Shown here in pieces: positions 31,539-47,903 of a DNA stretch of 58,163 nucleotides. Within the stretch, counting starts at the first letter, position 1. Each line of letters begins with the position of its first letter. The notes beneath the pieces are model-generated. The model saw only the letters and a list, made by a program, of their open reading frames with translations. It searched no databases and was not told the origin of the DNA. The position numbers and the translations under genes are program-made. The stretch comes from Bacteroidales bacterium (lineage in GTDB: Bacteria > Bacteroidota > Bacteroidia > Bacteroidales > DTU049), in contig JAOAAK010000030.1 in NCBI GenBank assembly GCA_026418905.1, positions 1-58,163 of the forward strand, written 5' to 3'.

Positions 31539-32402
31539 ATGAAACACTTTATTTTTTTCATTTTTTTTATCACAATAACTGCTTCATGGAGTCAGATACC
31601 CAATGCGAGTTTTGAAACCTGGCAATCATTTGGTAGTTATGAAAATCCAACTTTTTGGGATACACCGAACGATCTAACTTCCTCGTTTGGAAAAATCGTA
31701 GTAAGTAAGGAATCCAATCTTGTTTACGATGGTATGCATTCCATTAAAATAACAGTGGTTAGTTCCTTATTTGGCAATTTGCCTGGTATAGCTGTGTTAG
31801 GAGACTTTAGTTTTAACATGAGTACGATGTCGCCGAGCATAACTGGTGGAATTCCATTTACGCAACGTCCGTTGAAATTAAAGGGGTATTATCAATATGA
31901 ACCTAACTCACCTGATAATGCTTTGATTGGAATTTTTTTGTTAAAAGAGAATGGTTCGTCGTTCGACACCATTTCAGCAGATGGTTTTGAGCCAACAACT
32001 ACCGCAACACAGTGGACTTATTTTGAAATACCCATCAATTATCGAAACAGTGAAGCCCCAACCCATATGAATATTTTACTAATGCCTACCAACCGATCAA
32101 TCCCAAGAAATGGAAGTACTTTATATGTTGATAAACTCGAACTTGACTTCCCCACATCAATCACTTTCGATGAAAATGAGATAGATTTTAAAATTTATTT
32201 TAACAATTCATCTTTGCTCTTTGAACATGATGAAAAAGAATTATTACATGTTGAGATATACGATGTTCTTGGGCATCTTGTACTTCAAAAGTTAGTGGAT
32301 AAAAAAGTAGAAACATTTGATTTACCAGCGACCAAAAACATTTTCATAGTAAAAGTTAATTCATCCCGTGCAAGTAAAACTTGTAAAATTGTCTTACCAT
32401 GA
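31539..32402 (+). CDS. T9SS-exported PCMD-like protein
   Basis: A 287-residue protein with a signal peptide (MKHFIFFIFFITITASWSQ). The following domain begins IPNASFETWQSF and holds a YQYEP segment, LKENGSS and STLYVDKLELDFP; this is the pattern of the putative carbohydrate metabolism domain (PCMD), a lectin-like sandwich. The last 70 residues (EIYDVLGHLVLQKLVDKK through IFIVKVNSSRASKTCKIVLP) form a type A T9SS sorting domain, so surface export is predicted. It overlaps the next gene by four bases. Ligand unknown. Confidence 0.72.
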   Translation: MKHFIFFIFFITITASWSQIPNASFETWQSFGSYENPTFWDTPNDLTSSFGKIVVSKESNLVYDGMHSIKITVVSSLFGNLPGIAVLGDFSFNMSTMSPSITGGIPFTQRPLKLKGYYQYEPNSPDNALIGIFLLKENGSSFDTISADGFEPTTTATQWTYFEIPINYRNSEAPTHMNILLMPTNRSIPRNGSTLYVDKLELDFPTSITFDENEIDFKIYFNNSSLLFEHDEKELLHVEIYDVLGHLVLQKLVDKKVETFDLPATKNIFIVKVNSSRASKTCKIVLP

Positions 32403-33082
32403 ATAGGTTCTCAATTGCTTTTGCTTACCTTGTGGCTACAGTATTTTCCATATTTTCTCAGGAAGAGAAAAAAACCTCTCGATTTGTTGTATTCACTTCT
32501 CCATTTGGAGTTTTTACAAACACCATACCATTAGGGGTTGAATATACACTACTACCTTTTTTTTCCCTTAATATTAAAGGAAGTTATACCTACTCAGAAA
32601 GTGGAAAAAACGAACTTAACTATTTTAAGTTATATGGGACATCTGTCGGAGGTGATATTAAGTTGTTTATTCAATACAAATACGGTCATTATAAGTTCTC
32701 TACTATGTTTAAAAGCTTTAACAAGCTAAATGCAGAAATGTCAGAGTATAGTTTGCAACGTACAGGTTCTGTTCTTGTCTCCAAGTCATACGTAAAATTG
32801 GATTATAAGTATGAGGACTTACGTAATCGTTCCTATTTTAGAGGTGAACCCATTGATGGATTTGATTTTGTTCATGGTGCTGGACTAGCCTTCGGTGTAG
32901 AATGGCTTTTTTCTAACATGATTTTTATAAATTTTTACTTAGGGCCTTATTATTATTTCCACCATACGTCTGATCAATATTTAAACAATCTTCAGAAAGG
33001 CTCTTTTTTTCAATCGATGATGCTTAAAGGCTCAACTGGGACTAAAATTAATTTAGGTTTTGAGGTAGGCTTTCATTTTTAA
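32399..33082 (+). CDS. Predicted outer-membrane beta-barrel protein
   Basis: A 227-residue protein with a signal peptide (MNRFSIAFAYLVATVFSIFSQ), then short alternating strands rich in Tyr, Phe and Gly. It ends in KINLGFEVGFHF, with a terminal Phe as used by the BAM machinery. An eight- to ten-strand barrel is likely. The family is not recognised. It is translationally coupled (ATGA) to the PCMD-like gene. Confidence 0.68.
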   Translation: MNRFSIAFAYLVATVFSIFSQEEKKTSRFVVFTSPFGVFTNTIPLGVEYTLLPFFSLNIKGSYTYSESGKNELNYFKLYGTSVGGDIKLFIQYKYGHYKFSTMFKSFNKLNAEMSEYSLQRTGSVLVSKSYVKLDYKYEDLRNRSYFRGEPIDGFDFVHGAGLAFGVEWLFSNMIFINFYLGPYYYFHHTSDQYLNNLQKGSFFQSMMLKGSTGTKINLGFEVGFHF

Positions 33083-33236
33083 CTTGAATCTTCGGATGCA
33101 GTGAGTATTTTTAGCTTCTTATCATAGATCCTTATTGCTTTTAATTGGGGTTTAATTTTAAAATAACAAAAAGTTAAAGTTGTTTTCTCAATGAATTCAT
33201 TTATACTCTTTAAACTTGCGATTGGTAATACCTTTT

Positions 33237-34730
33237 ATGAAAGTCATCTTTACAGTGTTTTTTAAAATAGTCTTTCTAGCATTAGTTTTTGCTGATGACC
33301 CTCCTGCATCAAAATTCGAGATCAAAGGGTATGTTCAGGTTCAGTATCAGAAATTTTTCGTACCTGACACCATTGGTGGAGTTACTCCTTACTTTGCTCA
33401 TTTTGCTGGTGGTCCATTTGTTGGGTTTTCCACCAGTGATCGGTTTCAGATAAGACGAGGACGTCTCAAGGCCGTCCATCATTCTTCTTTTTCTGAAGCT
33501 GTTTTGTCCCTTGACCTGACGGAGAGAAACGTTAGATTAAGAGACGTGTACGTGGGGGTGAGCGAAAAAAAGTGGCAAATTTTTGGGATAGTCGCTGGAA
33601 TCTTCCCAAAGCCATTTGGAAAAGAAGTACCCATGTCATCTTCCCAACGACCTTTTCCAGAGCGAGCAAGAATAATTCAAACTCTTTTCCCTGATGAAAG
33701 AGATCTGGGCTTTATGCTAAACGCTGAAAAGAAATGGAAGGAAAAGCTGCCCACTTTAAATTTTAAAACTGCATTGGTCAATGGCAATGGTGCAACGCTT
33801 GAGACTGATAAATGGAAAGATTGGATAGCTTCTTTGCATGTGGATCAGAAAGATGTGGGTGGGTTTTTTTCTTTCAGTGTGGGTTTCTCACTGTATCGAG
33901 GAGGAATGAATCATATCTTTGAACCTGTTGATACGGTTGCATCTAATACCAATACAAAGTTTTATGTATACCGTTTTAATAACCATATAAATGATTCAAC
34001 TGGTCGAACAACTAAGGGCTTTGTGGTTGACACAGCTTTTACTCGATCTTGTGGTAGAACCGGAGGGAAAGTAAATAAAATTTATAATAGCGTTGATTTG
34101 AACATAGAATTTAAATCTGTTCTTGGCAAAACATGGATTTATGGTGAATATATTTGGGGGGTTCAACCTACACCAGTTTATTATAAAGATGTGGAACAAG
34201 CTTATATCGTCTACAATGGCATGAATAGTTTTAGTTATACTGGCCCCATGATTGGTGTAAGTTGGCCTATGTACGATCAACCTCAGCCTTATAACCCTTC
34301 AAGTGTAGGCCCGAGGATCAAACATTACCATACTTTTATCAGAAAAATGAACGGAGGATATATTGGTTTAAGTCAATCGGTTTTTCAGACTCCTTTCAAT
34401 ATACTTTTCAGATTTGATTGGTACGATCCTAATTTGTATGTAAAGGGAAAGGAAATAACTTATAATGAAGATTTGTACTTTAATGATCCAACATATATTA
34501 AACCTTATCTTTCACCAGCTGATATAGCTTTTCATACCTTTGGCTGGGGCTTTTCTTGGGCAATTAGAGAAAATGTCACTTTTACAGTTTTCTACGACCA
34601 TGTTAAAAATGAAAAAGTAGAGATTGGTCCTTATCCAGGAGATTTGAGGCTGGGCAGAATTCCATCGCCTGGATATACAAGAGATTTGGACGATGATGTT
34701 TTAACCGTTAGGTTGCAGTATCAATTTTGA
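33237..34730 (+). CDS. Phosphate-selective porin O/P-like outer-membrane porin
   Basis: OprP/OprO-type porins form 16-stranded trimers favouring phosphate or polyphosphate. The 497-residue protein starts with a signal peptide (MKVIFTVFFKIVFLALVFAD) and shows SDRFQIRRGRLKAVHHSSFSEA, LRDVYVGVSEKKWQIFGIVAGIFPKPFG and a final strand LTVRLQYQF, matching the porin O/P pattern. The ATG at 33237 is preferred to an upstream TTG at 33216 because it places the signal peptide at the N terminus. Two phosphatase genes follow directly, supporting phosphate as the solute. No Pho box was recognised upstream. Confidence 0.8.
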   Translation: MKVIFTVFFKIVFLALVFADDPPASKFEIKGYVQVQYQKFFVPDTIGGVTPYFAHFAGGPFVGFSTSDRFQIRRGRLKAVHHSSFSEAVLSLDLTERNVRLRDVYVGVSEKKWQIFGIVAGIFPKPFGKEVPMSSSQRPFPERARIIQTLFPDERDLGFMLNAEKKWKEKLPTLNFKTALVNGNGATLETDKWKDWIASLHVDQKDVGGFFSFSVGFSLYRGGMNHIFEPVDTVASNTNTKFYVYRFNNHINDSTGRTTKGFVVDTAFTRSCGRTGGKVNKIYNSVDLNIEFKSVLGKTWIYGEYIWGVQPTPVYYKDVEQAYIVYNGMNSFSYTGPMIGVSWPMYDQPQPYNPSSVGPRIKHYHTFIRKMNGGYIGLSQSVFQTPFNILFRFDWYDPNLYVKGKEITYNEDLYFNDPTYIKPYLSPADIAFHTFGWGFSWAIRENVTFTVFYDHVKNEKVEIGPYPGDLRLGRIPSPGYTRDLDDDVLTVRLQYQF

Positions 34731-34735
34731 ATTTT

Positions 34736-37387
34736 ATGAAGAGATTCAACTATGTGTTGTTTTTGACGTTAATAGTTAATCAAGTTTTTGCGGGTACACG
34801 ATTTTATCGTGCTTCATTTAGAGACGATCCTACGACTACCATCGTGATTGGTTGGTGTGAAGACGGAACATCGACAAATCCAAAGTTATTTTATGGGCCA
34901 CAGGATCATGGTCAGAATTATCAGAATTATCCTTATCAAGCAACAGTAAGCCGCACGGTCTCACATCGCGGACTTGTGAACCATTTTGTGCGGTTAACAA
35001 ATCTACAACCTGGGACAAAATATTTTTTTGTCATTAAAGATGATCAGAGTATTAGTCCAAGAATGTCTTTCAAAACATTGAGTGACAATCCAAATGTACC
35101 TATTTTGTTTGTTTCTGGTGGTGATACGAGAACAGGAGTTCCGCTCGTAGAATATGAGGTGGATCAGTGTGTTCCCAGAAGAAAAAGAGGGTTTGAACTG
35201 GTTGCTAAAATTCGTCCCGATTTTGTTGCATTTAGCGGAGATTTTGTGCTGACAAATACTTCGACTCAACAGTGGATCGATTGGTTTACGGATTTTCAAT
35301 TAACCATTGGACCTGAAGGAAGACTTACACCTATCATCCCCGTATTTGGAAACCATGAAGACGCTGTGGATGTATATAATTTTTTTGACATTCCTAATAG
35401 CAATGCTTTCTATGCTTTAACTTTTGGAGGTAATTTACTGAGATTATATACACTCAATTCAGACATTGGTTGCGGTTCTTCTCAACTTAATTGGTTTCAA
35501 AACGATCTTCAGCTTCATACGAATACGGTGAATGAACCATACTGGAAAGCAGTTCAATATCATATTCCTTTGGTCCCTCACGGTGAATATTCACCTATGA
35601 CGTCGCTTATCAGTTGTTGGGCACCATTGTTCACACAATATCAGGTGAGACTAGCTATGGAAGGACACACACATGTTGTGAAGATTACTTGGCCTATAGT
35701 CCCTTCAAATGCAACGGGTAGTGATAACGGTTTTATTAGAAATGACCAAAACGGAACAGTCTATTTAGGCGAAGGGAGTTGGGGAGCGCCTTTGCGGAAT
35801 TTGTATACATACTACAGTTCAAGTGCAGCTTATAATTGGACAAGAAACCAGGGAAAGTTCGCTTCGTTCTTCGTTGTGACTGTTACTAAACAAAAAATTC
35901 AGATCCGAACAGTTATGTTCAATGATGCCTCTCAAGTAGCTAACGTTAGTCAAGTTCAACCTAACGACCCGCCAGGTACGTTGCCTTCTGGTTTGACTTT
36001 TTGGAATCCGAGCAATGGTGGATTGGTAGAAATCCCGACAAATCGCATATTGAGCAACGATGCTACTTTAAGTCAATTACAAGTGAGCTATGGTAATCTC
36101 TCTCCCAATTTTAATTCATCAGTTACTACATACGAAGTTCTGGTACCTGATACTTTGTCATTCGTTCCAATTGTTACAGCTACACCTAGTCATCCTGGAG
36201 CGTACGTATCTATTCAACAAGCAACGTCTATTCAAGGTACTCAAAGCAACCGAACAGCAACCATTACCGTTACAGCTGAAGATGGTGTGACGACAAAAAT
36301 TTATCAGGTAGTTTTTCAGGCTATGCCAATTGCCAATGCTTATCTTCAGTCGCTCGTGCCAAGTCATGGATCATTAACTCCTTCATTTAGTCCAACAACT
36401 TATAATTATATCGTGTATCTACCTTATGGTTTTGTCGACACACCTTACGTAACAGCTACACCACAGGATCCCATGGCCACGATGACAATTACACAACCAA
36501 CTTCGCCAGATGGTATCGCTACGGTAGTCGTAACATCCTCGAATCAACAGGTAACTAAAACATATACAGTTGATTTTATCGTTTCTTCTAGCACCGATAA
36601 TTATATTATTTCTTTTGTTGTCCCTAATCAAATTGGACAAAGTATCATTGATAATCAGAACAATACTATCCAATTTACCATGCCGTACAACTACGATGTG
36701 ACCGCAATTGTTCCATACATAGTGCATACTGGCGTGAGTATTCACCCGCCCGCTGGAACACCGCGTAATTTTACCACTCCTGTGCAATATACCGTTTACT
36801 CAGCTAATAATACTCCACGTACTTATACAGTTTATTGTTCTTTTGCTCAACCAAGTAGTGACGCTTATTTGAGCTATCTTGAGGTGAAAGACAAGATACT
36901 AGATCCATCTTTTACCCCTGAAAATTCCTTATATTTTGTTTATGATACAGCAAGTAAGCCAGTGATCATAGCTATCCCGAGAGATTTAAATGCGACCGTA
37001 AAAATTTTTCCACCCGAAAGTGCTACAGGCTCATCTGCTCAACGAACGGCGCAAATTTTAGTCATTGCTCCCGACCTGATCACAACACGTCTTTATTCTA
37101 TCATTTTCGGAACACAAACCAGCATACCCTCTCAATTTTTACCAACAATAAGAGTTTTTCCAAATCCTTGCACTTCTGCTTTTTATATTCAATTACCAGA
37201 TCAACAACAAACCTATCAAATCCAGATTTTTTCAGGTTTAGGTCATCTCATGTACGATAATATCGTTACGAGTAAGGAAATTAGAGTTGATTGTGCAAAT
37301 TGGCCTGCAGGAACTTATTTCGTGATAGTAAAATATTATCATGCAAATGTTCATTTCAAAAAAGTGAAAGTAATCATACAAAAATGA
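34736..37387 (+). CDS. Purple-acid-phosphatase-like metallophosphoesterase with cadherin-like repeats and T9SS signal
   Basis: A large exported phosphoesterase of 883 residues. A signal peptide (1-19) is followed by an Ig/FN3-like domain (about 20-115) and a metallophosphoesterase domain (about 120-390) with metal ligands in GGDTR (D130), SGDFV (D169), GNHED (N206, H207), YHIPLVPH (H276) and EGHTH (H311, H313). Cadherin-like beta-sandwich repeats follow (about 440-800), for example DATLSQLQVSYGNLSPNF and NAYLQSLVPSHGSLTPSF. A type A T9SS sorting domain (VFPNPCTSAFYIQL onward) ends the protein. The ATG at 34736 replaces a TTG at 34727. It overlaps phoD by four bases. Confidence 0.88.
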   Translation: MKRFNYVLFLTLIVNQVFAGTRFYRASFRDDPTTTIVIGWCEDGTSTNPKLFYGPQDHGQNYQNYPYQATVSRTVSHRGLVNHFVRLTNLQPGTKYFFVIKDDQSISPRMSFKTLSDNPNVPILFVSGGDTRTGVPLVEYEVDQCVPRRKRGFELVAKIRPDFVAFSGDFVLTNTSTQQWIDWFTDFQLTIGPEGRLTPIIPVFGNHEDAVDVYNFFDIPNSNAFYALTFGGNLLRLYTLNSDIGCGSSQLNWFQNDLQLHTNTVNEPYWKAVQYHIPLVPHGEYSPMTSLISCWAPLFTQYQVRLAMEGHTHVVKITWPIVPSNATGSDNGFIRNDQNGTVYLGEGSWGAPLRNLYTYYSSSAAYNWTRNQGKFASFFVVTVTKQKIQIRTVMFNDASQVANVSQVQPNDPPGTLPSGLTFWNPSNGGLVEIPTNRILSNDATLSQLQVSYGNLSPNFNSSVTTYEVLVPDTLSFVPIVTATPSHPGAYVSIQQATSIQGTQSNRTATITVTAEDGVTTKIYQVVFQAMPIANAYLQSLVPSHGSLTPSFSPTTYNYIVYLPYGFVDTPYVTATPQDPMATMTITQPTSPDGIATVVVTSSNQQVTKTYTVDFIVSSSTDNYIISFVVPNQIGQSIIDNQNNTIQFTMPYNYDVTAIVPYIVHTGVSIHPPAGTPRNFTTPVQYTVYSANNTPRTYTVYCSFAQPSSDAYLSYLEVKDKILDPSFTPENSLYFVYDTASKPVIIAIPRDLNATVKIFPPESATGSSAQRTAQILVIAPDLITTRLYSIIFGTQTSIPSQFLPTIRVFPNPCTSAFYIQLPDQQQTYQIQIFSGLGHLMYDNIVTSKEIRVDCANWPAGTYFVIVKYYHANVHFKKVKVIIQK

Positions 37388-39291
37388 AAATATATTTTTT
37401 AACGTCGGTATTTTTGATTGCACTCTATTCGTTGTTAGGTCAGTCGAAGAATTATAGTAAACGGCTTGATAAGTCTTTTGATCCAATTTATGCTCCATTT
37501 TATCATGGGGTTGCTTCAGGAGATCCTTTATCTGATCGGGTAATAATATGGACGAGAGTGACCGATTTCAGCTTTGGATCAGATAGTATCCCTGTTCAGT
37601 GGTTTGTGTGTTTGGATACGTGTTGTCAACAAGTTATTAAGAGTGGTTATGCCTATGCAAGTGCTTCTCGTGATTTTTGTGTTAAGGTAGATGTTACAGG
37701 ATTGCAGCCAGATACATGGTATTATTATTATTTTCGTGCTCTTGGTCGGAATTCTGTTTTAGGCAGGACACGGACTTTACCTGTAGGAAATAATCTAAAT
37801 AATTTGCGTTTTGGTTTTTTTCATGGAAGTAATTATAACAGTGGTTATTATAATGCCTTACGAGACTTAGCCAACAGGAATGATGTTGATTTCATGATTC
37901 ATCTCGGAGATTATATCTACGAGTACGGTACGGGTGGATATGGCAATCATCCGGATCGTTGGGTTGTGCCTGATTGGGATATTGTAACTCTCAGTGATTA
38001 TCGTGCTCGTTATAGTCATTATCGCCTTGATCCAGATCTTAGGTGGGCTCATCAGCAGTACCCATGGTTTGTGATCTGGGATGACCATGAAGTAGCTAAT
38101 AATGCATGGCGACATGGTGCAGAAAATCATGATTCAACTACGCAGGGTAGTTATGAAGTTCGTCGTGCATGTGCTATTCAAGCTTTTATGGAATGGATGC
38201 CTCTGAGACCTGTGAACAACCCACAATGTCCCGATAATCACATTCGTAAGTACTTTGATTTTGGCGATTTGGCAAGGCTTATTCTAATCGATTCTAGGCA
38301 TGAAGCACGAATGGCACAAGATGCTTTGCCCAATAATGATCCTAACAAAACCATGCTGGGAGAAGTGCAATATCAGTGGATAACACAAGCTCTATACGAA
38401 TCATACCATAATGAACATCAAAAATGGAGAATCATTGGTAATCAAGTGATGTTTGTCCCCCTTAAAATATTAGGTCAAGTTGTTAACAACGACCAGTGGG
38501 ATGGATATATGCAGGACAGACAAAGGATTATGAATTTTATACGTTACACCAATATTAAAAACAATGTGATTATAACGGGCGATATTCATACTTCTTGGGC
38601 TTGTGACGTGCCAGATCCTTACATAGGTCAATATGGACCTAACGGGCAAGGATGTTCTAATCTTGTTGAATTTGTCTCACCAAGTATAACATCTCCTTCT
38701 TTCCCATTCGGAAATGGAGTAGGGGTACCACTCATTATTTCCAATAATCCTCACATTAAATGGGCAGATTTAATTTACAAAGGATACTCCATTCTTGACA
38801 TTAAGCCTATGAGAGTGCATTCGGACTGGTTTTTTGTTAGTACCATCGATAATCCTGATAGCTTTCAAACAAACTGGGCTCAAGGTTGGTACGTTAATAA
38901 GGATGAAAATTTTCTGCGAATGGCTTATGCTCCTGCTTTGCCTTTAAATACTTATCCCTCATTGAGTGGAGAAAAGCCATTTTCATGCCAGCAAGATTCT
39001 ACCATCACACAACTCAATGAAAATGGTCATTTTACTTTATTGAGTCTTTTTCCGAACCCTAACAACGGAAGAATGACTATACAGTATCATCTCAAAGAAC
39101 CACAAACTCTGACATTTCATGTATTGGACATGCATCAAAAATTAGTTTATCAGGAGAGTATTACACCAGCGAAATTTGATATTCAATACCATGGATTTAA
39201 CTTGCATTTACCTGCAGGTCAATACTATTTGTTGATTTATTCAAATCAGAAATTGCTAGGGAAAATACCATTTGTAATTGTTAATCGATAA
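37384..39291 (+). CDS. phoD: PhoD-like alkaline phosphatase/phosphodiesterase with T9SS signal
   Basis: PhoD enzymes release phosphate from mono- and diesters using calcium and iron. The 635-residue protein has a signal peptide (about 1-20), the PhoD N-terminal domain (HGVASGDPLSDRVIIWTRV, 41-59) and the catalytic domain with HLGDYIYEYG (173-182), WDDHEVANNAW (232-242) and GDIHTSW. A type A T9SS sorting domain (LFPNPNNGRMTIQY onward) follows. The usual S-C-Q-N-Y stretch near the first acidic motif, whose Cys binds iron in Bacillus PhoD, reads H-G-S-N-Y here. The ATG at 37384 overlaps the preceding stop. Confidence 0.9.
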   Translation: MKIYFLTSVFLIALYSLLGQSKNYSKRLDKSFDPIYAPFYHGVASGDPLSDRVIIWTRVTDFSFGSDSIPVQWFVCLDTCCQQVIKSGYAYASASRDFCVKVDVTGLQPDTWYYYYFRALGRNSVLGRTRTLPVGNNLNNLRFGFFHGSNYNSGYYNALRDLANRNDVDFMIHLGDYIYEYGTGGYGNHPDRWVVPDWDIVTLSDYRARYSHYRLDPDLRWAHQQYPWFVIWDDHEVANNAWRHGAENHDSTTQGSYEVRRACAIQAFMEWMPLRPVNNPQCPDNHIRKYFDFGDLARLILIDSRHEARMAQDALPNNDPNKTMLGEVQYQWITQALYESYHNEHQKWRIIGNQVMFVPLKILGQVVNNDQWDGYMQDRQRIMNFIRYTNIKNNVIITGDIHTSWACDVPDPYIGQYGPNGQGCSNLVEFVSPSITSPSFPFGNGVGVPLIISNNPHIKWADLIYKGYSILDIKPMRVHSDWFFVSTIDNPDSFQTNWAQGWYVNKDENFLRMAYAPALPLNTYPSLSGEKPFSCQQDSTITQLNENGHFTLLSLFPNPNNGRMTIQYHLKEPQTLTFHVLDMHQKLVYQESITPAKFDIQYHGFNLHLPAGQYYLLIYSNQKLLGKIPFVIVNR

Positions 39292-39296
39292 AATAA

Positions 39297-40547
39297 ATGA
39301 GTATGAAAAAGTTTTTATTGTTTTGTTTCATGTTTATTGCCGGAAAATTGGCACTATTTTCACAATCGCATTTTGATATTCAAGTTTATCATCAATGCGA
39401 TTCTGGTAAGATCAAACTGATCAATCATCATCCATCCAATGGTTATCAACCTCATTTTATGACTACTACAGGATTTAGGTATTCGTGGAATTTCGGAAAT
39501 GGTCAAACATCCACTGCAGAAAATCCTCCTTTAGTAAAATATTCACAACCTGGAACATACAATATTTCTTATTCAGTCACTATCGACACGGTTGGATTTT
39601 ATTTAAATCGTATGACTGTTACAAGAGTTGGATGTACGGATCCTTTTGGAGGAAAACCTGATGTATACGTAATAATACGAGATAATGATGGTATTGAAGT
39701 TTACAATACATTTAATAATCAATTTGTTAACACTTCTCCACCATACACGTGGGAGCCACAAATCTTATTGAAAAATCCCCCTTATTTTGTATGGGTTTGG
39801 GATGATGATCCAGTAGATGGTGATGATAATTGTGTTGATGATTCTGAAAATCAACCCGGAGCGTCAACCCTCATATTATTACCTCCAAACAATCCTCAGC
39901 ATTTTGGAACGACAACTTATGTTGATACCAACAACATGGTCATCGTCGAATTTGAATTTTATAAGCCTGTACTTCAATTTTCCCAACAAAAAACATTTAC
40001 TGTATATTCTTCTCCAGCTGTTCCAACTCTTAACTATACTTACGGAAATTATCATATTAATGACCCAATTCCTCCTGTCATCGCATCAATTCAAAATGCA
40101 AATGTTGCGTATTGGTATGATGATTCATCTTTTGTTCAACCCATTGATACGGGTGAAGTATTTTATTTTCATCCTACCGGAAACGGGACATTTACTTTTT
40201 GGGTCAGGCAATACAATCCTACCTCTACATGTTATAGTCCAGCTGCAAGTGTAACATTCGAAATATACGGTGCAGCTTCTGTTTGGGAAGGTCATGAACG
40301 AAAACCTAGTTTTTCTTACGATAATATTGAAAATAGTTTGAACCTTTCTTTTTTTAGTCCAACCGAAAAAATAGTTGATATTCAAGTATTTAATTCACTT
40401 GGTCAGGTCTTATTCAAAGAAAAACTTCGTAACTATAACAACAGTGATATATCGATTAATTTGCCGAATCTAACAGATGGGATTTATTTTGTAAAAATAG
40501 AAACCTCTAAACATCAGGTGACTGGCAAGTTCGTAGTAAAGCATTAA
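39297..40547 (+). CDS. Surface protein: PKD-like plus C2-like domains, type A T9SS signal
   Basis: A 416-residue exported protein. Signal peptide about 1-22; PKD-like motif YSWNFGNGQTST at 62-73; then a module (about 113-190) with CTDPFGGKPDVYVII, PYTWEPQILL and VWVWDDDPVDGDDNCVDD, whose spacing of acidic loops resembles a calcium-binding C2 domain. A linker (about 225-330) is followed by a type A sorting domain (DIQVFNSLGQVLFKEKL to GKFVVKH). It is a paralogue of the next gene over the first 220 residues. ATG at 39303 is an alternative start. An adhesin or calcium-dependent binding role is inferred. Confidence 0.75.
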   Translation: MSMKKFLLFCFMFIAGKLALFSQSHFDIQVYHQCDSGKIKLINHHPSNGYQPHFMTTTGFRYSWNFGNGQTSTAENPPLVKYSQPGTYNISYSVTIDTVGFYLNRMTVTRVGCTDPFGGKPDVYVIIRDNDGIEVYNTFNNQFVNTSPPYTWEPQILLKNPPYFVWVWDDDPVDGDDNCVDDSENQPGASTLILLPPNNPQHFGTTTYVDTNNMVIVEFEFYKPVLQFSQQKTFTVYSSPAVPTLNYTYGNYHINDPIPPVIASIQNANVAYWYDDSSFVQPIDTGEVFYFHPTGNGTFTFWVRQYNPTSTCYSPAASVTFEIYGAASVWEGHERKPSFSYDNIENSLNLSFFSPTEKIVDIQVFNSLGQVLFKEKLRNYNNSDISINLPNLTDGIYFVKIETSKHQVTGKFVVKH

Positions 40548-40554
40548 AACAAAC

Positions 40555-42489
40555 ATGAACTCCAAAAAGTATATTTTACTGTTTCTCTCTTTTGTAGTTG
40601 TCCAATGGTTGTTCGGACAAAATACTTTTCAAGTCACTCCTAATCCAGGTTGTGTAGGAGTTCCTGTAAGTTTCGCTACTCTATTTTCTTCCAATTATGT
40701 TCCTATTCCAAATTTTACTACAGGTTATTCTTATTACTGGAATTTCGGTAATGGTCAAACTTCTACGCAACCCAATGTAACTGGCTTTGTTTACAATTCG
40801 GCCAACGATTACCACATCAGACATGTGGTGTACATTGATACGGTTGGGTTTGTTTTGAAAAAAGTTGAAGTACTTGCAGGTGCGTGCAACGACCCATTTG
40901 GAGGTGCACCGGATCCATATCTTATAATAACCAACGGGAATAATCAAACTGTTTTTTCTACGGCTTCTTCCCCTTACAACGATACACATTTTCCGGTAAG
41001 CTGGAACTTGAACATATTGCTTACTCATCCCCCTTATAGGTTTTGGGTTTGGGATAAAGATTCTTACGATGGCGACGACAATTGTGTCAACGATCAAGAA
41101 ACTCAACCAGGTGTGTATTCCAACATAAATCTGCCTCCCAACGACACCACCACCTTTGGTGAAACAGTATATTCTTTCACGAATCAAGGACTTACTTATA
41201 GGCTATATTTTTCAAAAAATGTAACCAAGCATCAAGAAAGTTACACATATACTGTTCATTCTAGACCTTCTCTTCCGGTTCTCGTAGAGAATTTTACTCA
41301 CTTTTGTTTGGGACAGTCTCCTGAACCTTTGGTAGTTTTGAGTCAAAGCGGATATGAATATGCATGGTTTTCAGATACAACGCTTACACAACCATTGTTG
41401 GTCAATGATACTTTTTATCCCAATATTACTCAAGCAGGATCGTATCAATATTTTGTTACTCAGATCGATACGAACACTCAATGCAGGAGCGGTTTTATTG
41501 CGGCTTCTGTACAGGTGATCGCTTTACCTGGACCATTGGTTAAAGGTTATTTTCCCATTTTGTGTGAAGGAGAACAAATACAAGCGTGGATTGCCTTCGG
41601 AGATAGCATTGTATGGTATGGTGACTCCTTAGGACAAAGTGTATTACATATAGGTGATACCTTTTTGCTCAATCAAAATCAACCTGGTTCATATCAGGTT
41701 TGGGTAAGGGAAATTTCCGATGAGGGTTGTTTTTCACAATTTACTCATTTGCCTGTTTACATTTCGCCAAAATTGGAAGCCCATATTTTGACACATCCTC
41801 CCTCTTGTGTGAGCAAAAATGACGGAAAAGCAACAGCCATTCCTTTAAACGGGTATCCACCTTTTCGATATGTTTGGTCCAACGGAGATTCCACCCAGAC
41901 AGCCAACAATCTGCCACCAGGCGATGTAACCGTTGTGATTATTGATTCAGCTATGTGTTTGCGTACTTTTCAGGCATACGTGCCAGAAGCAGATTCAATC
42001 AAAGTTCGTTTTCAGATCGAGAGACCTTCTTGTCTTCCAGAGGGCCCCGAAGGAAAAATTACCATCCAACCAACAGGGGGAAACCCTCCTTATCAGATAA
42101 CTTGTAATGGAGAACTAGTAGATACTATTTTGTCTAATATTGAACCCTCAACATATCATTTTCAAATCATAGATTCAAACGCTTGTGTGAAAGATACCAC
42201 CATTCACGTGGAAAAGCTTGATGATTGCTTGGAAATCGCTACTATTCTTACTCCTAATGGTGATCATTTGAACGATACATGGCAAATCCGTTCTATTCAA
42301 TATTTTCCGAAAGCTCGAATAGAAGTGTTTGATAAATTTGGAAATCTTGTCTTTAGCTCTGATGGCGAATATGAACCTTGGGATGGCACTTATAAAGGAT
42401 CGATTTTGCCTGCTGGTTCTTATTATTACGTGATTAAATTTTCTCCTGATGGAGAACAAATTACAGGAATTGTCGATATTTTATATTAA
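40555..42489 (+). CDS. Surface protein: PKD-like plus C2-like domains, type B (CHU_C) T9SS signal
   Basis: A 644-residue exported protein paralogous to its upstream neighbour. Signal peptide 1-22; PKD-like YYWNFGNGQTST at 60-71; C2-like module at about 111-180 with CNDPFGGAPDPYLII and FWVWDKDSYDGDDNCVND. Ig-like segments and two SprB-type repeats follow (PSCVSKNDGKATAIPLNGYP with YVWSNGDSTQTANNLPPG, then PSCLPEGPEGKITIQPTGGNP). The C terminus (LTPNGDHLNDTWQIRSIQYF to GIVDILY) is a gliding-motility/type B sorting domain. A PorP/SprF-like gene follows after four bases, as usual for type B cargo. Confidence 0.82.
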   Translation: MNSKKYILLFLSFVVVQWLFGQNTFQVTPNPGCVGVPVSFATLFSSNYVPIPNFTTGYSYYWNFGNGQTSTQPNVTGFVYNSANDYHIRHVVYIDTVGFVLKKVEVLAGACNDPFGGAPDPYLIITNGNNQTVFSTASSPYNDTHFPVSWNLNILLTHPPYRFWVWDKDSYDGDDNCVNDQETQPGVYSNINLPPNDTTTFGETVYSFTNQGLTYRLYFSKNVTKHQESYTYTVHSRPSLPVLVENFTHFCLGQSPEPLVVLSQSGYEYAWFSDTTLTQPLLVNDTFYPNITQAGSYQYFVTQIDTNTQCRSGFIAASVQVIALPGPLVKGYFPILCEGEQIQAWIAFGDSIVWYGDSLGQSVLHIGDTFLLNQNQPGSYQVWVREISDEGCFSQFTHLPVYISPKLEAHILTHPPSCVSKNDGKATAIPLNGYPPFRYVWSNGDSTQTANNLPPGDVTVVIIDSAMCLRTFQAYVPEADSIKVRFQIERPSCLPEGPEGKITIQPTGGNPPYQITCNGELVDTILSNIEPSTYHFQIIDSNACVKDTTIHVEKLDDCLEIATILTPNGDHLNDTWQIRSIQYFPKARIEVFDKFGNLVFSSDGEYEPWDGTYKGSILPAGSYYYVIKFSPDGEQITGIVDILY

Positions 42490-42493
42490 ATCT

Positions 42494-43390
42494 ATGAAAA
42501 AAGTTCTTGTCAATTTAATGAGCTTTTTTATTTTGTTTGTTGATGGTAGTGGGCAGTATTTGTTAAGATTCGAAAGTTATCAGACAAATCCTTATTTTCA
42601 GGGGCCCTCAGCTATAGCTTTGTCAGATTCGACCACGTTAACTATGTGTTTGGAGCAGCCTTTAAATAAATTCGATGCTCGTTCTCCAAGAACTTATTCT
42701 GTATTAGCGACTACGTCAAGTATGAATTATTATTGGGGGGGTATGTTGACATTAGACGAATGGGGAAAGACCACAGTTGTCCAATCTCAAATAAGCCTAG
42801 CCAAGTCATTTAAATTTAATAATAAGAGTTTTTTTTCTATTGGAATCACTGCAGCTGCCAGACAATTTTGTTTTAAGGCGTCAGATCATGTCTATTTTGA
42901 TCCCCTTGATCCTGCCATCTCCAATCTTACTGAAAGAAGTTTTTCCTTTGACTTTGATGCTGGTACGAGTTTTTACGTTCCACACTTTTCATTCACTTTT
43001 ACCATGATGAATTTGATTAGATCAAAAGTAAGAACTGGCGACGAACAATCTCATGGATTTTATCCAGAGCGTGAAATTAAAATTGTTAATGTTGCAAAAT
43101 TTCCCATCAACCCTCATGTTCTATTCCATCCTTCGATTTCTTACCGGCAAATTGGAAAAAAAATTAAACTTTTCGATACTCAATTTTTATTCACGTATAA
43201 AAGTTTATACACTGCTGGTCTTGCAATTCAATTCCCATTATCTTTGGATCTACATGCGAAGCTAAATTATAAAAGAATGCAGTTCTCTTTCATTTTTTCG
43301 TATTTTGCCGGGAAATTCTCTTATTTGTATCCGTTAAACATGGAGTCTACCTTTACTTACTTTACTCCAAGGAATGTAATCAATCGTTAA
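42494..43390 (+). CDS. Diverged PorP/SprF-family outer-membrane protein
   Basis: PorP/SprF proteins are outer-membrane barrels that assist secretion or anchoring of type B T9SS cargo. The 298-residue protein has a signal peptide (about 1-20), then YLLRFESYQTNPYFQGPSAIALSD in the place of the family's N-terminal repeat region. Barrel strands follow to the end. The ATG at 42494 is chosen because the longer frame (42449) runs through the preceding gene and buries the signal peptide. Assignment rests on pattern and on its place directly after a CHU_C-tailed gene; similarity is modest. Confidence 0.68.
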   Translation: MKKVLVNLMSFFILFVDGSGQYLLRFESYQTNPYFQGPSAIALSDSTTLTMCLEQPLNKFDARSPRTYSVLATTSSMNYYWGGMLTLDEWGKTTVVQSQISLAKSFKFNNKSFFSIGITAAARQFCFKASDHVYFDPLDPAISNLTERSFSFDFDAGTSFYVPHFSFTFTMMNLIRSKVRTGDEQSHGFYPEREIKIVNVAKFPINPHVLFHPSISYRQIGKKIKLFDTQFLFTYKSLYTAGLAIQFPLSLDLHAKLNYKRMQFSFIFSYFAGKFSYLYPLNMESTFTYFTPRNVINR

Positions 43391-43396
43391 TTACAT

Positions 43397-45556
43397 ATGA
43401 AGTCAATTTTTTTTGTTTTTTTTCTTTATTTTTCAGTTGGTTTAATCATCTCACAAGAGATACAAGATGATTCTATTAAAGAAGTTATTATTGTAGATTC
43501 GATACATCCTGTTAATAACAGTGTTTTTACTTTTTTAAATCTGGAGGGAAAAAAATCTTTATCTATCAAGATTTCTGATCAGTTTACTATACTTTCAGCG
43601 AAACAGCCAAGACATGTTTTTGCTCAAATTCCAGGGGTTTTCGAATACGATATGGATGGAACAGGAAATCAGATTAATTTCTCGGTGCGTGGGTTGGATC
43701 CACATCGAAGCTGGGAATTTAACGTAAGAAAAGACCAGATTATTACCAATACTGATCTTTTCGCTTATCCTGCCAGTCATTATTCGGTTCCTCTTGAAGC
43801 TATTGAAAGAATTGAATACATAAGCGGAACAGCTGCCTTGCAGTATGGTTCCCAATTCGGGGGCCTTATCAATTACGTGAGCAAAAGGCCTGATCCTGAA
43901 AAATTTTTTTCATACGAAAATTATTTTACCTTCGGTAATTATAAGTTTCTGGCAACTTTTCATCGTTTTTCAGGTAGCAGAGGAAAATTTGCCTACAATA
44001 CCTGGCTTTATCTTAAATCCTATGATGGTTATAGAGAATACAACCATTCTACTGGAAATGCTCAAAATATAACATTGTTTTTTTATCCGTGGAAGGATTT
44101 TATGATGCGTTTAGAATGGACTCATTCAGGATATCTCATTCAGCTTCCTGGGCCCCTCAACGACAGTATGTTTAGAGTAAATCCTCGAATGGCAACCAGA
44201 CAGAGAAACTATTACAGCCCTTCCATTCATATACCATCGTTGAATATTTTCTGGAAGATTAATCAAAACATTCAATTATTTTTTTGGACAGCTTACCTTA
44301 CTGGGTCTCGGAACAGTGTTATGTTCGACAAACCTGCCAATATTCCTGATACGGTCTCACAAAACACTTTACAGTATGCTCCTCGTGAGGTCCATATAGA
44401 TAAATATGGAAGTTATTCGTCTGAATTGAAGATTAAGTATTCCTATAGCCTTTTTCAAAAAAATCATCAATTCTTTGCTGGAGTTCAAAGCTTAATCAAT
44501 CGCACACGTCGCTTTCAGCAAGGCTTAGGAACAGCTGGCACTGACTATGATCTCACTGTCGTGAATTCAACTTGGGGTAGGGAAGTGCAATACTATACAG
44601 ACCATGTTGCTTTTTTCCTGGAGAATAAGCTTAATGTTTTTAAAGAATTCTTTTGGCAGTTTGGATTAAGATACGAGAAAGGAACTTCGATATTTAAGGG
44701 TAAGATAAATTATTACGACAGCGAAAAACTCAAAAATACTATCCCGCATGATTTTCCTCTTCTTGGTTCGCAATTGTCTTACAAGCCTCTGAAATGGTTG
44801 TTAATGTATGTGGGTTATTCACAAGCGTATCGTCCTGTTTTAATGAAGGACATTGTGCCAGCATCATCTCAAGAAATGGTCGACAAAAATCTTAAGGATG
44901 TTCGTGGGCATGTAGCTGAAGCTGGTGTCAAAATCGTCCTACCTTATTTCAAGGGAGAAATAACTTATTTTGACATATTGTATAAAAACAGGATGGGGTC
45001 CATAGTTCAGGAAGACTCTATGAACAACGTATATATCTTTAAAACCAATGTTGGTGATTCTAGAAATAAAGGGATTGAATTATTTGGCCAAATTGACTAT
45101 CATTTTACTCAGAAGTTTAAAGCTTTGGCATTTACATCCATTTCATATTTAGATGCTCGTTACATTTCTGGTATTTTAAGGAAAGGTAATCAAAACGTCA
45201 ATATAGCAGGTAATCGAGTTGAATCTGCTCCGGAATGGACTGTACGTTCAGGCTTCCTATTTTCTTACAAAAAACTGTCTTTGCAATTGATTTATACGTA
45301 TGTGGACGAAACTTTTGCTGATCCTTTCAATACGGTTGAACCCAATGTCAGTGGTACGGTGGGGTTAGTTCCTCTTTATCGTTTGTGGGACGTATCCCTT
45401 TCAGCAGAGCTTAGCAAAAACGTCACTTTTCTTATGCAAATTAATAATTTGCTTGATGAAAAATATTTCACAAAACGTCCACAATTTTATCCTGGCCCTG
45501 GAATTTGGCCATCTGAAGGGCGTACGTTGAGATTTACTTTGCATGTTAAAACTTAA
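43397..45556 (+). CDS. FecA-like TonB-dependent receptor
   Basis: A 719-residue outer-membrane receptor: signal peptide (1-19), a short N-terminal stretch, and a plug domain (about 75-175) with AKQPRHVFAQIPGVFEYDMDG, NFSVRGLDPHRSWEFNVR and LEAIERIEYISGTAALQYGSQFGGLINYVSK. The barrel ends NNLLDEKYFTKRP and EGRTLRFTLHVKT. The plug and lack of a carboxypeptidase-like domain set it apart from the receptor at 22340 and resemble ferric-citrate-type receptors. It begins six bases after the PorP/SprF-like gene. A ferric chelate is the most likely ligand, but this is unproven. Confidence 0.9.
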   Translation: MKSIFFVFFLYFSVGLIISQEIQDDSIKEVIIVDSIHPVNNSVFTFLNLEGKKSLSIKISDQFTILSAKQPRHVFAQIPGVFEYDMDGTGNQINFSVRGLDPHRSWEFNVRKDQIITNTDLFAYPASHYSVPLEAIERIEYISGTAALQYGSQFGGLINYVSKRPDPEKFFSYENYFTFGNYKFLATFHRFSGSRGKFAYNTWLYLKSYDGYREYNHSTGNAQNITLFFYPWKDFMMRLEWTHSGYLIQLPGPLNDSMFRVNPRMATRQRNYYSPSIHIPSLNIFWKINQNIQLFFWTAYLTGSRNSVMFDKPANIPDTVSQNTLQYAPREVHIDKYGSYSSELKIKYSYSLFQKNHQFFAGVQSLINRTRRFQQGLGTAGTDYDLTVVNSTWGREVQYYTDHVAFFLENKLNVFKEFFWQFGLRYEKGTSIFKGKINYYDSEKLKNTIPHDFPLLGSQLSYKPLKWLLMYVGYSQAYRPVLMKDIVPASSQEMVDKNLKDVRGHVAEAGVKIVLPYFKGEITYFDILYKNRMGSIVQEDSMNNVYIFKTNVGDSRNKGIELFGQIDYHFTQKFKALAFTSISYLDARYISGILRKGNQNVNIAGNRVESAPEWTVRSGFLFSYKKLSLQLIYTYVDETFADPFNTVEPNVSGTVGLVPLYRLWDVSLSAELSKNVTFLMQINNLLDEKYFTKRPQFYPGPGIWPSEGRTLRFTLHVKT

Positions 45557-45557
45557 A

Positions 45558-46136
45558 ATGATGAACAGTGGGAAAAGGTTCAATCGTCCGTATATTACCA
45601 TAGTTGTAATATTTCTCTTAACATTTGCATACGCTTTTATTCGTTACGTGACATTTGGCAACATGACCCCGGAAAATATTCCTCTAGTTATCACGAATAA
45701 AGCCATTGCTTTTACTTTGCCGTTTATTTTTCTTATATTGTCGATAAAATATGCTAACAACCGTACAGTAGATCAAACAAATCATGATGCTTTACGACAA
45801 ATGTCGTTTTTTCATATTATTTTGTCCATTCTTATACTTTCAAAAGATCTTCTGCCGAAATTTATCTCCAATGATTCATATTCATTTGATGGAAGTTTTT
45901 CTCTTCTTGGTGGGATCATCACTTATTTTTTGGTGCGTGGACTGAAAAATTATCAAACAATGCTTATTTTTTCACTGTTTTTAAAACTTCATATTTTTTT
46001 CATCGGATATAAAAATTGGCTAAATCCCTCCGTCTGGTTTGGTTACTTGCCACCAATTACCATGATCTGTTTCATACTTTTGATTGTGGCTGATGTAATT
46101 TTGGTGAGGAGTTATGTACGAATAAGGCAAGAATAA
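45558..46136 (+). CDS. Small polytopic membrane protein after the FecA-like receptor
   Basis: A 192-residue protein with five or six membrane helices, beginning MMNSGKRFNRPYITIVVIF. It has few charged residues inside the helices and a single His-bearing helix pair (SFFHIILSILIL and LKLHIFFIGY). I do not recognise the family. An in-frame ATG at 45543 would overlap the receptor gene by 14 bases; the ATG pair at 45558-45563 just after the stop is preferred. Position suggests a role with the receptor, such as inner-membrane handling of its ligand, but nothing proves it. Confidence 0.62.
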   Translation: MMNSGKRFNRPYITIVVIFLLTFAYAFIRYVTFGNMTPENIPLVITNKAIAFTLPFIFLILSIKYANNRTVDQTNHDALRQMSFFHIILSILILSKDLLPKFISNDSYSFDGSFSLLGGIITYFLVRGLKNYQTMLIFSLFLKLHIFFIGYKNWLNPSVWFGYLPPITMICFILLIVADVILVRSYVRIRQE

Positions 46137-46238
46137 AATCTTTTTAATATTGATCTTATCGAGTTTAGTACGAACAAAGTTGATTGGGCTGTTGATGCAG
46201 GGTTATTGCATTTTATTCGTACAAATTAAGTGTAGAAT

Positions 46239-47903
46239 TTATACTAGTTCGAATTTTTTAAGGTCTTCTTCGACTGTGCTAGTGGTGTTAATTTGAAATT
46301 TTTCTTGGAGGATTTTGAGAACGTTTGGGCTCAAGAAAGCAGGTAAGGTGGGACCAAGGTGAATGTTTTTCACTCCTAAATACAGAAGTGCCAACAATAC
46401 GATAACAGCTTTTTGTTCGTACCATGCAATATTATAAACGATGGGGAGTTTGTTGATATCGTCGAGACCCAGGACTTCTTTTAGTTTTAGAGCAACAGCT
46501 GCAAGCGAATAGGAATCGTTGCATTGTCCGGCATCCAATACACGTGGAATTCCGTCAATGTTACCGAGAGGAAGTTTAATATAACGATATTTAGCACAAC
46601 CTGCGGTTAGAATCACGGTATCAGGGGGAAGTTTTTGTGCAAATTCTGTATAGTATTGTCGTTCTTTATGGCGTCCGTCACAACCAGCCATCACAACAAA
46701 TTTTTTAATTTTCCCTGAATTTACGGCTGCGAGAACTTTATCGGCTAACGATAAGACTTGATGGTGAGCAAAACCACCTACGATCTGACCTTCTTCGAGT
46801 TGTAATGGTGGTTGGCATTGTTGTGCATGCCTGATAATTTGACTAAAGTCTTTAGATTTACCATCTTTTCTGTTCGGGATGTATGTAGCGTTTGGTAATC
46901 CGGTTGCACCTGTAGTATATATGCGATCTTTGTAACTAGCATTTTCAAAAGGAGGAACAATGCAATTGGTAGTGAAAAGAATAGGTCCGTTGAATTTTTC
47001 AAATTCTTCACGTTGTTGCCACCATGAATTACCGTAATTTCCAGCAAAATGGGTATATTTTTTAAAAAAGGGATAATAATGAGCTGGTAACATTTCGCCA
47101 TGAGTGTATATATCAATACCAGCATCTTTGCTTTGCTCAAGTAGTTCTTCTAGATCGATCAGATCATGTCCGGAAACTAAAATTCCAGGACGATTTCTCA
47201 CACCTAATGAAACCGTAGTGACTTCAGGATGGCCATATCGGTTCGTGTGAGCCTCGTCAAGCAAAGCCATCGTGCGAACCCCTTTCTCACCACATTCTAA
47301 AATTAGAGTAAGTAGTTCATCGTTTGAAAGATTATTTTTTTCTAGCGATGTAAAAACGCGATGTATGAAATGAAAAATTTCCTTATCGCTTTTTCCTAAG
47401 TGTAAAGCATGATATGCATAAGCCGCCATTCCTTTGACTCCATACATGAGAGTTTCCCTTAATGATCGATGATCTTCATCATAATCTGTGTTAACACCAT
47501 GTAATTGTCCAATTTTCAAAATTTCTTCATCTGACGTGGCAATCCAAAACGAAGAAGCAGGTAGTTGTTCAAGTGAAAAAGAAGGATCGACATCTTGTAA
47601 TTTGTTCAAAGCTGTCTTTTTCAACTCAAATGAACGATAAATAGAATTTATAATTGACTGAGGATCAAAATTGACGTTAGTTACTGTTTTAAACAACGAC
47701 TCTAAAATGAATTCATCGTATATTTGAGTGGGAACATCAAGTTTGTTGAGATGGTAAAGGATATTGCTTAGCCCTTTAACAGAATAGATTAGAGCATCCA
47801 TAAGTATCGCCAATTCAGAGTCTTTTCCACATACTCCTTGGGTAGTACAACCAATCCCCTTGGCTGCTTCTTGACATTGATAACAAAACATATTTGTTTT
47901 CAT
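46239..47903 (-). CDS. hcp: Hybrid-cluster protein, class I
   Basis: Hcp reduces nitric oxide (and hydroxylamine in vitro) with a 4Fe-4S cluster and an Fe-S-O hybrid cluster in the cytoplasm. The 554-residue protein has the N-terminal CX2CX8CX5C pattern (C7, C10, C19, C25 in [14 protein letters not shown]...VC), as in strict anaerobes. Hybrid-cluster ligands appear in [29 protein letters not shown] and DAGQCND. No hcr reductase gene is adjacent. Its upstream region carries a CRP/FNR-like palindrome and a second inverted repeat next to the start codon, suggesting control by a nitrosative-stress regulator. Confidence 0.96.

Follow-up and report, generated by a model that had tools for sequence, protein, structure and literature searches.

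The window analysed here is a 58,163-nucleotide stretch of DNA from a Bacteroidales bacterium (GenBank assembly GCA_026418905.1, contig JAOAAK010000030.1, forward strand), in which two adjacent genes encode the related proteins A and B. Both proteins combine a PKD domain with a C2-like block and end in a sorting domain of the type IX secretion system (T9SS), which is of type A in protein A and of type B in protein B (Table 1). Our best explanation overall, to which we assign a probability of roughly 0.55, is that A and B are exported C2 modules, B acting as a calcium-dependent tether near secreted phosphatases and A being an extra copy that carries the type A signal.

The duplicated module and its predicted C2 fold

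The reading frames of A and B are both intact and are spaced by 7 bases. BLASTP aligned the two proteins with 119 identical residues out of 321 (37%, 198 bits), and the expectation value (E) of 2e-61 rules out chance as the source of the similarity. An earlier sequence-only reading had correctly recognised that the adjacent genes share a module but had put its extent at about 220 residues; since the alignment spans 321 residues, the duplicated part comprises about 320 residues. It consists of the signal peptide, the PKD domain, the C2-like block, and an Ig_7-like domain, the C-termini alone differing in kind. All four motifs singled out in that reading (WNFGNGQTST, IDTVGF, DPFGGxPDxY, and WDxDxxDGDDNCVxD) are present in both proteins. 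The C2 block is the best-conserved part of the pair (55 of 123 residues identical versus 29 of 75 in the N-terminal PKD part and 27 of 103 in the linker and Ig part). The PF00801 PKD scores are barely above the cut-off in A and B (24.3 and 24.6 bits versus 23.5), and the Ig_7 match in A falls under its own (17.2 versus 27.3). SprB repeats and Ig_7 were also matched in B. The third domain of B (41236-41523) is similar to repeats of GhpA, the Aureispira grappling-hook protein, which matched the profile of the operon clade (A, B, and the relatives in the operon described below) with a whole-protein E of 1.3e-40 over 20 stretches, the best of them at this third domain.

The C2 fold of the block is established at the level of prediction. 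The AlphaFold model of A has a pLDDT of 87.5. Among the 50 VIA-align matches listed for this model, most are C2 structures, the best with a Z-score of 10.8 (9zk1_D, 112 residues aligned, 2.4 Å). Foldseek returned 15 matches at E ≤0.001, all of which we take to be entries that contain C2 domains. The model of B was computed from an alignment of eight operon-clade rows only and is therefore independent of distant relatives. Its C2 part matched C2 structures with Z-scores of up to 9.8 (5ixc_B, 108 residues aligned, 2.5 Å), and the 50 Foldseek matches listed for B are mainly multi-Ig proteins and GhpA. A viral structure library gave no match at E 0.001 or better.

At the sequence level, a profile of the A and B blocks retrieved homologues at loci L009 (5e-53), L010 (5e-15), L012 (1.6e-06), and, more weakly, L011 (0.002). 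A 7-row profile found more members in related genomes (E of 7e-28 to 4e-16) and, in a sample of the phylum, matches of 3e-20 and 4e-18 in two genomes with weaker ones below. PF00168 (C2) was the best Pfam match for four of ten relatives (E of 4e-4 to 0.039), with a highest score of 21.0 bits for a cut-off of 22. Because the PF00168 cut-off was missed, we class the block as remote C2-like by fold and not as a member of that family. A 20-row profile that includes the distant relatives (A3) matched, among sequences of the PDB, the C2 domains of perforin (9.2e-07) and of a Trichomonas protein (1.7e-06), and it also retrieved those of otoferlin and synaptotagmin. Judging by name, we take 58 of its best 60 of 88 matches to be C2 proteins and two to be sporulation kinase D. 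A C2 match by sequence was obtained only with this profile. The C2 assignment, offered as unproven in the sequence-only reading, is therefore supported both by the folds predicted for the two paralogues (Z-scores of 9.8-10.8) and by the distant-relative profile. The two outcomes that would have refuted that reading did not occur: the predicted fold is that of a C2 domain in both proteins, and the block fell in 0 Pfam families, C2 itself being the best family, under its cut-off, for four of ten relatives.

The last two of the four motifs had been proposed to sit at the calcium-binding loops of a C2 domain, and the alignment bears this out for loops 1 and 3, with aspartate at all five ligand positions. 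In the 20-row profile, the columns of D115, D122, D169, D171, and D177 of A (D113, D120, D167, D169, and D175 of B) align to the loop 1 and loop 3 aspartates of synaptotagmin-1, which we take to be the C2A calcium ligands D172, D178, D230, D232, and D238. We surveyed the ligands in 46 distinct domains with E of 1e-4 or better from the loci read; one duplicate gene was dropped, and the survey excludes seven order-sample matches without a locus and the weak matches L104-L106. Aspartate occupies all five positions in 31 of these domains, A and B included. Of the other 15, seven have one Asp-to-Glu change, seven have other changes, and one is cut short. The five aspartates are invariant across the eight operon-clade rows. 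The ligands are framed by two cysteines, one of them two residues ahead of the first ligand (C113 in A) and the other two residues past the last (C179). Of the 46 domains, 20 have both cysteines, 25 have neither (one with a gap at one position), and a single domain has only one of them (Fisher p of 4e-12, ignoring shared ancestry). This covariation suggests a disulfide that would link loops 1 and 3.

The model of B makes it likely, if unproven, that the C2 domain interrupts the last hairpin of the PKD domain instead of following the PKD domain. The Pfam PKD matches in A and B end at profile position 64-65 of 80, directly before the C2 block. On the model of B, the PKD chains 2c26, 4tn9, 1l0q, and 4aqo align over 77-83 residues at 1.4-2.1 Å, the first aligned residue being 1 and the last 215-216. 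As the C2 matches cover residues of about 72-205, the last PKD strand would be placed after the C2 domain. In this model, long strands (63-87 and 192-214) continue from one domain into the other. When the C2 domain was spliced out, the PKD_4 match became longer in three of five proteins (A, L009, and L109), with little change in score.

The phosphatase operon and the two sorting signals

Gene order at related loci was read with the window genes as queries. The shared order comprises genes for an OprO/P-like porin, a purple-acid-type (PAP-like) metallophosphoesterase, a PhoD phosphatase, a PKD-C2 protein of type B, and a PorP/SprF-family protein, followed, where seen, by a 197-residue membrane protein and/or a TonB-dependent receptor. 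This operon was found in seven genomes besides that of the window, at loci L009 (Bacteroidales bacterium SKW241), L107 (genome G006), L146 (G467), L147 (G660), L148 (G563), and L149 (G654), and in G044, in which one contig (L189) holds the porin, PAP, and PhoD genes and then ends and the C2 gene stands at the start of another (L108), ahead of PorP/SprF and a receptor fragment. L148 and L149, which scarcely differ, count as one event. A PhoD gene lies upstream of the C2 gene at 7/7 loci with upstream DNA (directly at six, with A in between in the window), and a PorP/SprF gene lies directly downstream at 6/6 loci with downstream DNA. Between the window genes, from the porin gene through the gene for the 197-residue protein, the gaps are -4, -4, 5, 7, 4, 6, and -14 bases for the starts used, PorP/SprF thus starting 4 bases after B.

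The PAP-like protein was also used as a query against 393 genomes of the order, 22 of which, including that of the window, gave a match at E 1e-60 or better. Full-length matches were obtained in six of the 22, and all six genomes have the C2 gene (on the same contig in five, with both genes at contig ends in G044). The neighbourhoods of seven of the other 16 contained no PhoD or C2 gene; two of these contigs are under 4 kb, and one of the two, L188, is uninformative because the porin and PAP genes reach its end. The families encoded by the operon point to a role in phosphate acquisition. A TonB-dependent receptor is present, and SusD had no match among the eight operon-region proteins scanned.

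The C-terminus of A matched Por_Secre_tail (44.1 bits, Pfam cut-off of 27) and TIGR04183 (43.8, cut-off of 23), and that of B matched CHU_C (73.8 bits, Pfam cut-off of 27) and TIGR04131 (72, cut-off of 35). The sorting domains of A and B are thus above curated cut-offs, as assigned in the sequence-only reading (type A in the first protein, SprB-like repeats and type B in the second), and its proposal that one duplicated module is coupled to both export classes side by side is borne out. The genome of the window encodes SprA (SprA_N, 5.1e-174) and 10 PorP/SprF proteins, these being the T9SS components searched, and contains, at E 0.01, 72 sorting-domain matches of type A and 32 of type B, with 25 of the type B matches above the cut-off. 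In this 2.1-Mb genome, 25 type B matches above the cut-off stand against 10 PorP/SprF genes, and most type B cargoes therefore cannot each own a shuttle. According to PMC9143113, PorP-like proteins anchor type B cargo, as in the pairs SprB-SprF and PG1035-PorP, and PMC12618676 describes cognate pairs in Flavobacterium johnsoniae and shuttles that are commonly encoded directly downstream of their cargo. The protein encoded downstream of B (Pfam PorP/SprF match of 3.2e-21, above the cut-off; TIGR03519 score of 84.7 bits, below the cut-off of 90.55) is the probable shuttle and anchor for B.

A is probably the extra copy, since a single C2 gene lies between PhoD and PorP/SprF in each of L009, L146, L147, and L148, the relatives whose loci cover this whole interval. 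In L107 and L149, PhoD is followed by a gene of the B kind that is truncated by the contig end, so that a second copy is possible there. CHU_C is above the cut-off in all six complete clade members besides A (B, L009, L146, L147, L148, and L108). The tree places A and B within the operon clade (support of 99/99) on long branches (0.98 and 1.12). As A sits among clade members that, where complete, are all type B, it is most simply explained as a duplicate of type B cargo whose C-terminus has become type A. The grouping of A and B as sisters has a support of 69/64, and a topology that joins B to the other seven rows of the operon clade and leaves A outside could not be rejected (p-AU of 0.099).

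Two other origins of A or of its signal were considered. PKD-C2 proteins outside the clade have Por_Secre_tail above the cut-off in 13 of 14 cases scanned, the exception being L010, and no adjoining PhoD gene was found for them in the DNA read (weak PhoD matches in L152, L156, and L157 fall on the C2 gene itself). Gain of A from these type A clades is not favoured by its position in the operon clade. Derivation of its sorting domain from the neighbouring PhoD or PAP gene is not supported: BLASTP gave no match between the tail of A and those of the PhoD and PAP proteins of the window. The tail had only weak matches, to tails of relatives (best E of 4e-05 in a small set).

Proposed function and competing accounts

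By analogy with known type B cargo, B would be exported by the T9SS with the neighbouring PorP/SprF protein, to which it would remain anchored. Fold, ligands, and gene order together suggest that calcium-bound C2 loops dock B on anionic phosphorus-rich matter, for which phospholipid debris, vesicles, lipopolysaccharide (LPS), and calcium phosphate are candidates, and this docking would be placed near the secreted PAP-like and PhoD phosphatases. By the same kind of analogy, A would carry the binding module along the PorV/PorU route to anchoring on anionic LPS (A-LPS) or to release. We infer that B most likely tethers material of this kind to the cell surface in a calcium-dependent manner. A broader claim joins two parts, namely that a surface family of Bacteroidota captures phospholipid membranes or other anionic phosphorus-rich matter by means of a C2 domain that is loaded with calcium, braced by a disulfide, and placed within a PKD domain, feeding the phosphatases of the operon, and that a duplicate moved from the PorP/SprF-anchored to the PorV/A-LPS class by exchange of its C-terminal signal. 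Taken jointly, the two parts make a tentative and rather doubtful proposal.

Several results weigh against the reading of A and B as exported calcium-binding C2 modules set in a PKD domain within a phosphatase operon. The search of Pfam with the C2 block of A and B that returned 0 families allowed E up to 10. Against PDB sequences, the A and B profile found PKD-bearing chains only and no C2, the operon-clade profile found GhpA, PKD, and unrelated chains and no C2, and the C2-only version of the latter profile found one unrelated chain (E of 0.85); the link of the window proteins to C2 runs via relatives and predicted folds. Foldseek TM-scores for the model of A are modest (0.35-0.58, query-normalised, among the 50 matches listed), and a predicted C2 fold alone does not imply calcium or lipid binding. 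L107 keeps one of the two cysteines only. At its tip, loop 3 carries V, Y, M, L, and M in A, B, L009, L146, and L147 and A, A, S, and G in L148, L149, L107, and L108; as these residues differ across the clade, a membrane-inserting tip is not uniformly kept. Removal of the C2 domain changed the PKD score by only -1.7 to +1.6 bits in five proteins. Finally, the TonB-dependent receptor was not recognised in L146 or L147.

It is possible, if somewhat unlikely, that the C2 domain is a calcium-stabilised structural part of a spacer or adhesin, akin to calcium-bound PKD or cadherin repeats, that binds neither lipid nor phosphate, the link to the operon then reflecting generic surface anchoring. Where it was modelled, B consists of beta-sandwich domains in a row, of which the third is like the GhpA repeats, the tips of loop 3 are not uniformly hydrophobic, and extracellular calcium would keep the site filled. 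Both proteins nevertheless keep the five aspartates of a synaptotagmin-type multi-ion site, and not a single structural site, in the domain that is best conserved between them.

The constant presence of PhoD and the PAP-like enzyme next to the C2 gene, and the occurrence of this gene in 6/6 genomes of the order sample that have a full-length PAP homologue, would also fit a protein that works on its own cell. The C2 domain would then bind LPS of the outer leaflet, or the phosphatases themselves, through calcium, as the docking subunit in a complex of surface phosphatases with PorP/SprF as its base. We consider this unlikely; against it, the PKD-C2 proteins of other clades have no adjoining PhoD gene in the DNA read. 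A decaying duplication devoid of functional meaning would account for the presence of two copies only in the window, four relatives that are complete from PhoD to PorP having one, and for the long branches of A and B, but is highly improbable given two intact frames, the five ligand aspartates and both cysteines kept in A and B, and a type A domain above the cut-off in A.

The preferred reading, that of exported C2 modules with B as a tether, assembles parts of known kinds. C2 domains are best known as eukaryotic intracellular sensors of calcium and membranes. A and B are like members of the C2 superfamily (PF00168; perforin, synaptotagmin, cytosolic phospholipase A2) in predicted fold and in the aligned aspartates of loops 1 and 3, and differ from them in scoring below the Pfam cut-off, in export by the T9SS, in the covarying cysteine pair at the site, and in the apparent insertion in a PKD domain. 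B resembles the type B cargoes SprB and PG1035 (PMC9143113, PMC12618676) in its CHU_C domain, SprB repeats, and downstream porP/sprF-like gene, whereas its C2 domain and its place in a phosphatase operon set it apart. A has the type A domain of cargoes of the PorV route (TIGR04183), above the cut-off, on an N-terminal part from a clade in which all complete members but A are type B. For Flavobacterium, PMC8115612 describes phosphate utilisation systems (PUS), phosphorus-related gene clusters with TonB-linked transporters of the SusCD type, one cluster including proteins with T9SS domains. Phosphorus enzymes are likewise clustered with a TonB-linked outer-membrane transporter in the window operon, but the eight proteins scanned there include no SusD-like protein and instead a C2 protein paired with PorP/SprF. 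The term C2 domain has 0 occurrences in the main text of PMC8115612, and a literature search for C2 domains with T9SS or Bacteroidetes gave no relevant title or abstract start among the matches listed. The combination of a T9SS-exported C2 domain, apparently PKD-inserted, with a phosphatase operon and a signal-switched copy was not found among the papers that the literature search listed. Coupled to a phosphatase operon, such a domain might let Bacteroidota retain organic phosphorus on their surface, a concrete and testable possibility. The A/B pair further amounts to a natural experiment: as the two T9SS export classes would carry a common module to the surface, signal and destination can be told apart while the passenger stays constant.

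Features of the window and further carriers of the C2-like domain

Table 1. Positions of the operon genes and of the domains and loops of proteins A and B in the window.
Feature	Position	Strand	Basis or remark
OprO/P-like porin, first gene of the conserved operon	33216..34730	+	start listed TTG; Porin_O_P under cut-off
PAP-like metallophosphoesterase with type A sorting domain	34727..37387	+	start listed TTG
PhoD phosphatase, weak type A sorting domain (below cut-off)	37384..39291	+	open reading frame from 37291; ATG 37384 preferred
Protein A, 416 residues	39297..40547	+	signal peptide, PKD, C2-like block, weak Ig_7-like domain, T9SS type A sorting domain
A, PKD up to penultimate strand, residues 23-98	39363..39590	+	Pfam PKD match, residues 56-94, ending at profile position 65 of 80
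A, C2-like domain, residues 99-222	39591..39962	+	profiles, AlphaFold model, fold comparison
A, loop 1, D115 to D122, putative calcium ligands	39639..39662	+	alignment
A, loop 3, D169, D171, D177, putative calcium ligands	39801..39827	+	alignment
A, type A T9SS sorting domain	40332..40538	+	Pfam, NCBIfam
Protein B, 644 residues	40555..42489	+	signal peptide, PKD with C2-like block, two Ig_7, SprB repeats, CHU_C type B domain
B, C2-like domain, residues 97-219	40843..41211	+	profile, model
B, loop 1, D113 to D120, putative calcium ligands	40891..40914	+	alignment
B, loop 3, D167, D169, D175, putative calcium ligands	41053..41079	+	alignment
B, type B (CHU_C) T9SS sorting domain	42232..42474	+	Pfam, NCBIfam
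PorP/SprF-family outer-membrane protein	42494..43390	+	open reading frame from 42449; ATG 42494 preferred
TonB-dependent receptor, downstream operon gene	43397..45556	+	nearest NCBIfam models siderophore-type, all below cut-off
197-residue membrane protein (DUF197 here), downstream operon gene	45543..46136	+	homologues at same locus in L009, L146

Some labels in Table 1 are weak. Porin_O_P is above the cut-off in two of the three porin homologues scanned, which leaves the porin label weak, and the DUF6773 match of the 197-residue protein is below the cut-off. A scan of positions 32900-46400 gave 54 sigma-70-like sites (mean of 48.1 in shuffled sequence, standard deviation (sd) of 5.4) and 4 terminator-like sites (8.4 in shuffled sequence, sd of 3.2), which makes these counts uninformative. 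Genes for a PCMD-domain protein and a 227-residue protein lie directly upstream of the operon (31539-33082), and a comparison with 15 related loci revealed no homologue of either.

C2 domains of the A/B type were detected in 8/59 relatives (E of 1e-3), in 34/393 genomes of the order (E of 1e-4), and in 10/395 genomes of the phylum sample (E of 1e-3, several of them weak). Each count includes the genome of the window, and the three were made with different profiles.

The C2-like domain of the A/B type also occurs in M4 thermolysin-type peptidases, at L114 (genome G023), L155 (G469), and L158 (G621). It lies between the propeptide motif and the start of the best catalytic-domain match and thus apparently inside the catalytic N-domain; in L114, it spans residues 286-401, and the best M4 stretch starts at residue 381, at profile position 50 of 145. 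This arrangement suggests that insertion into other domains may be a habit of this C2 family. The type A sorting domain is above the cut-off in L114 and L155 and below it in L158.

Mostly short frames with the C2-like domain (about 165-270 residues) were found at L100, L101, L103, L131, L132, L135, L137, L138, and L140-L145. The frame of L143 has 540 residues, that of L100 has a lipoprotein-like start, and in L131, L132, and L140 the match runs through one stop codon. Another carrier, at L102:298-1911 (G429), is a protein of the thiol-activated-cytolysin family (PF01289, E of 4e-25). The C2-like domain forms its C-terminal part, with all five aspartates, an arrangement that recalls the C2 domain of perforin.

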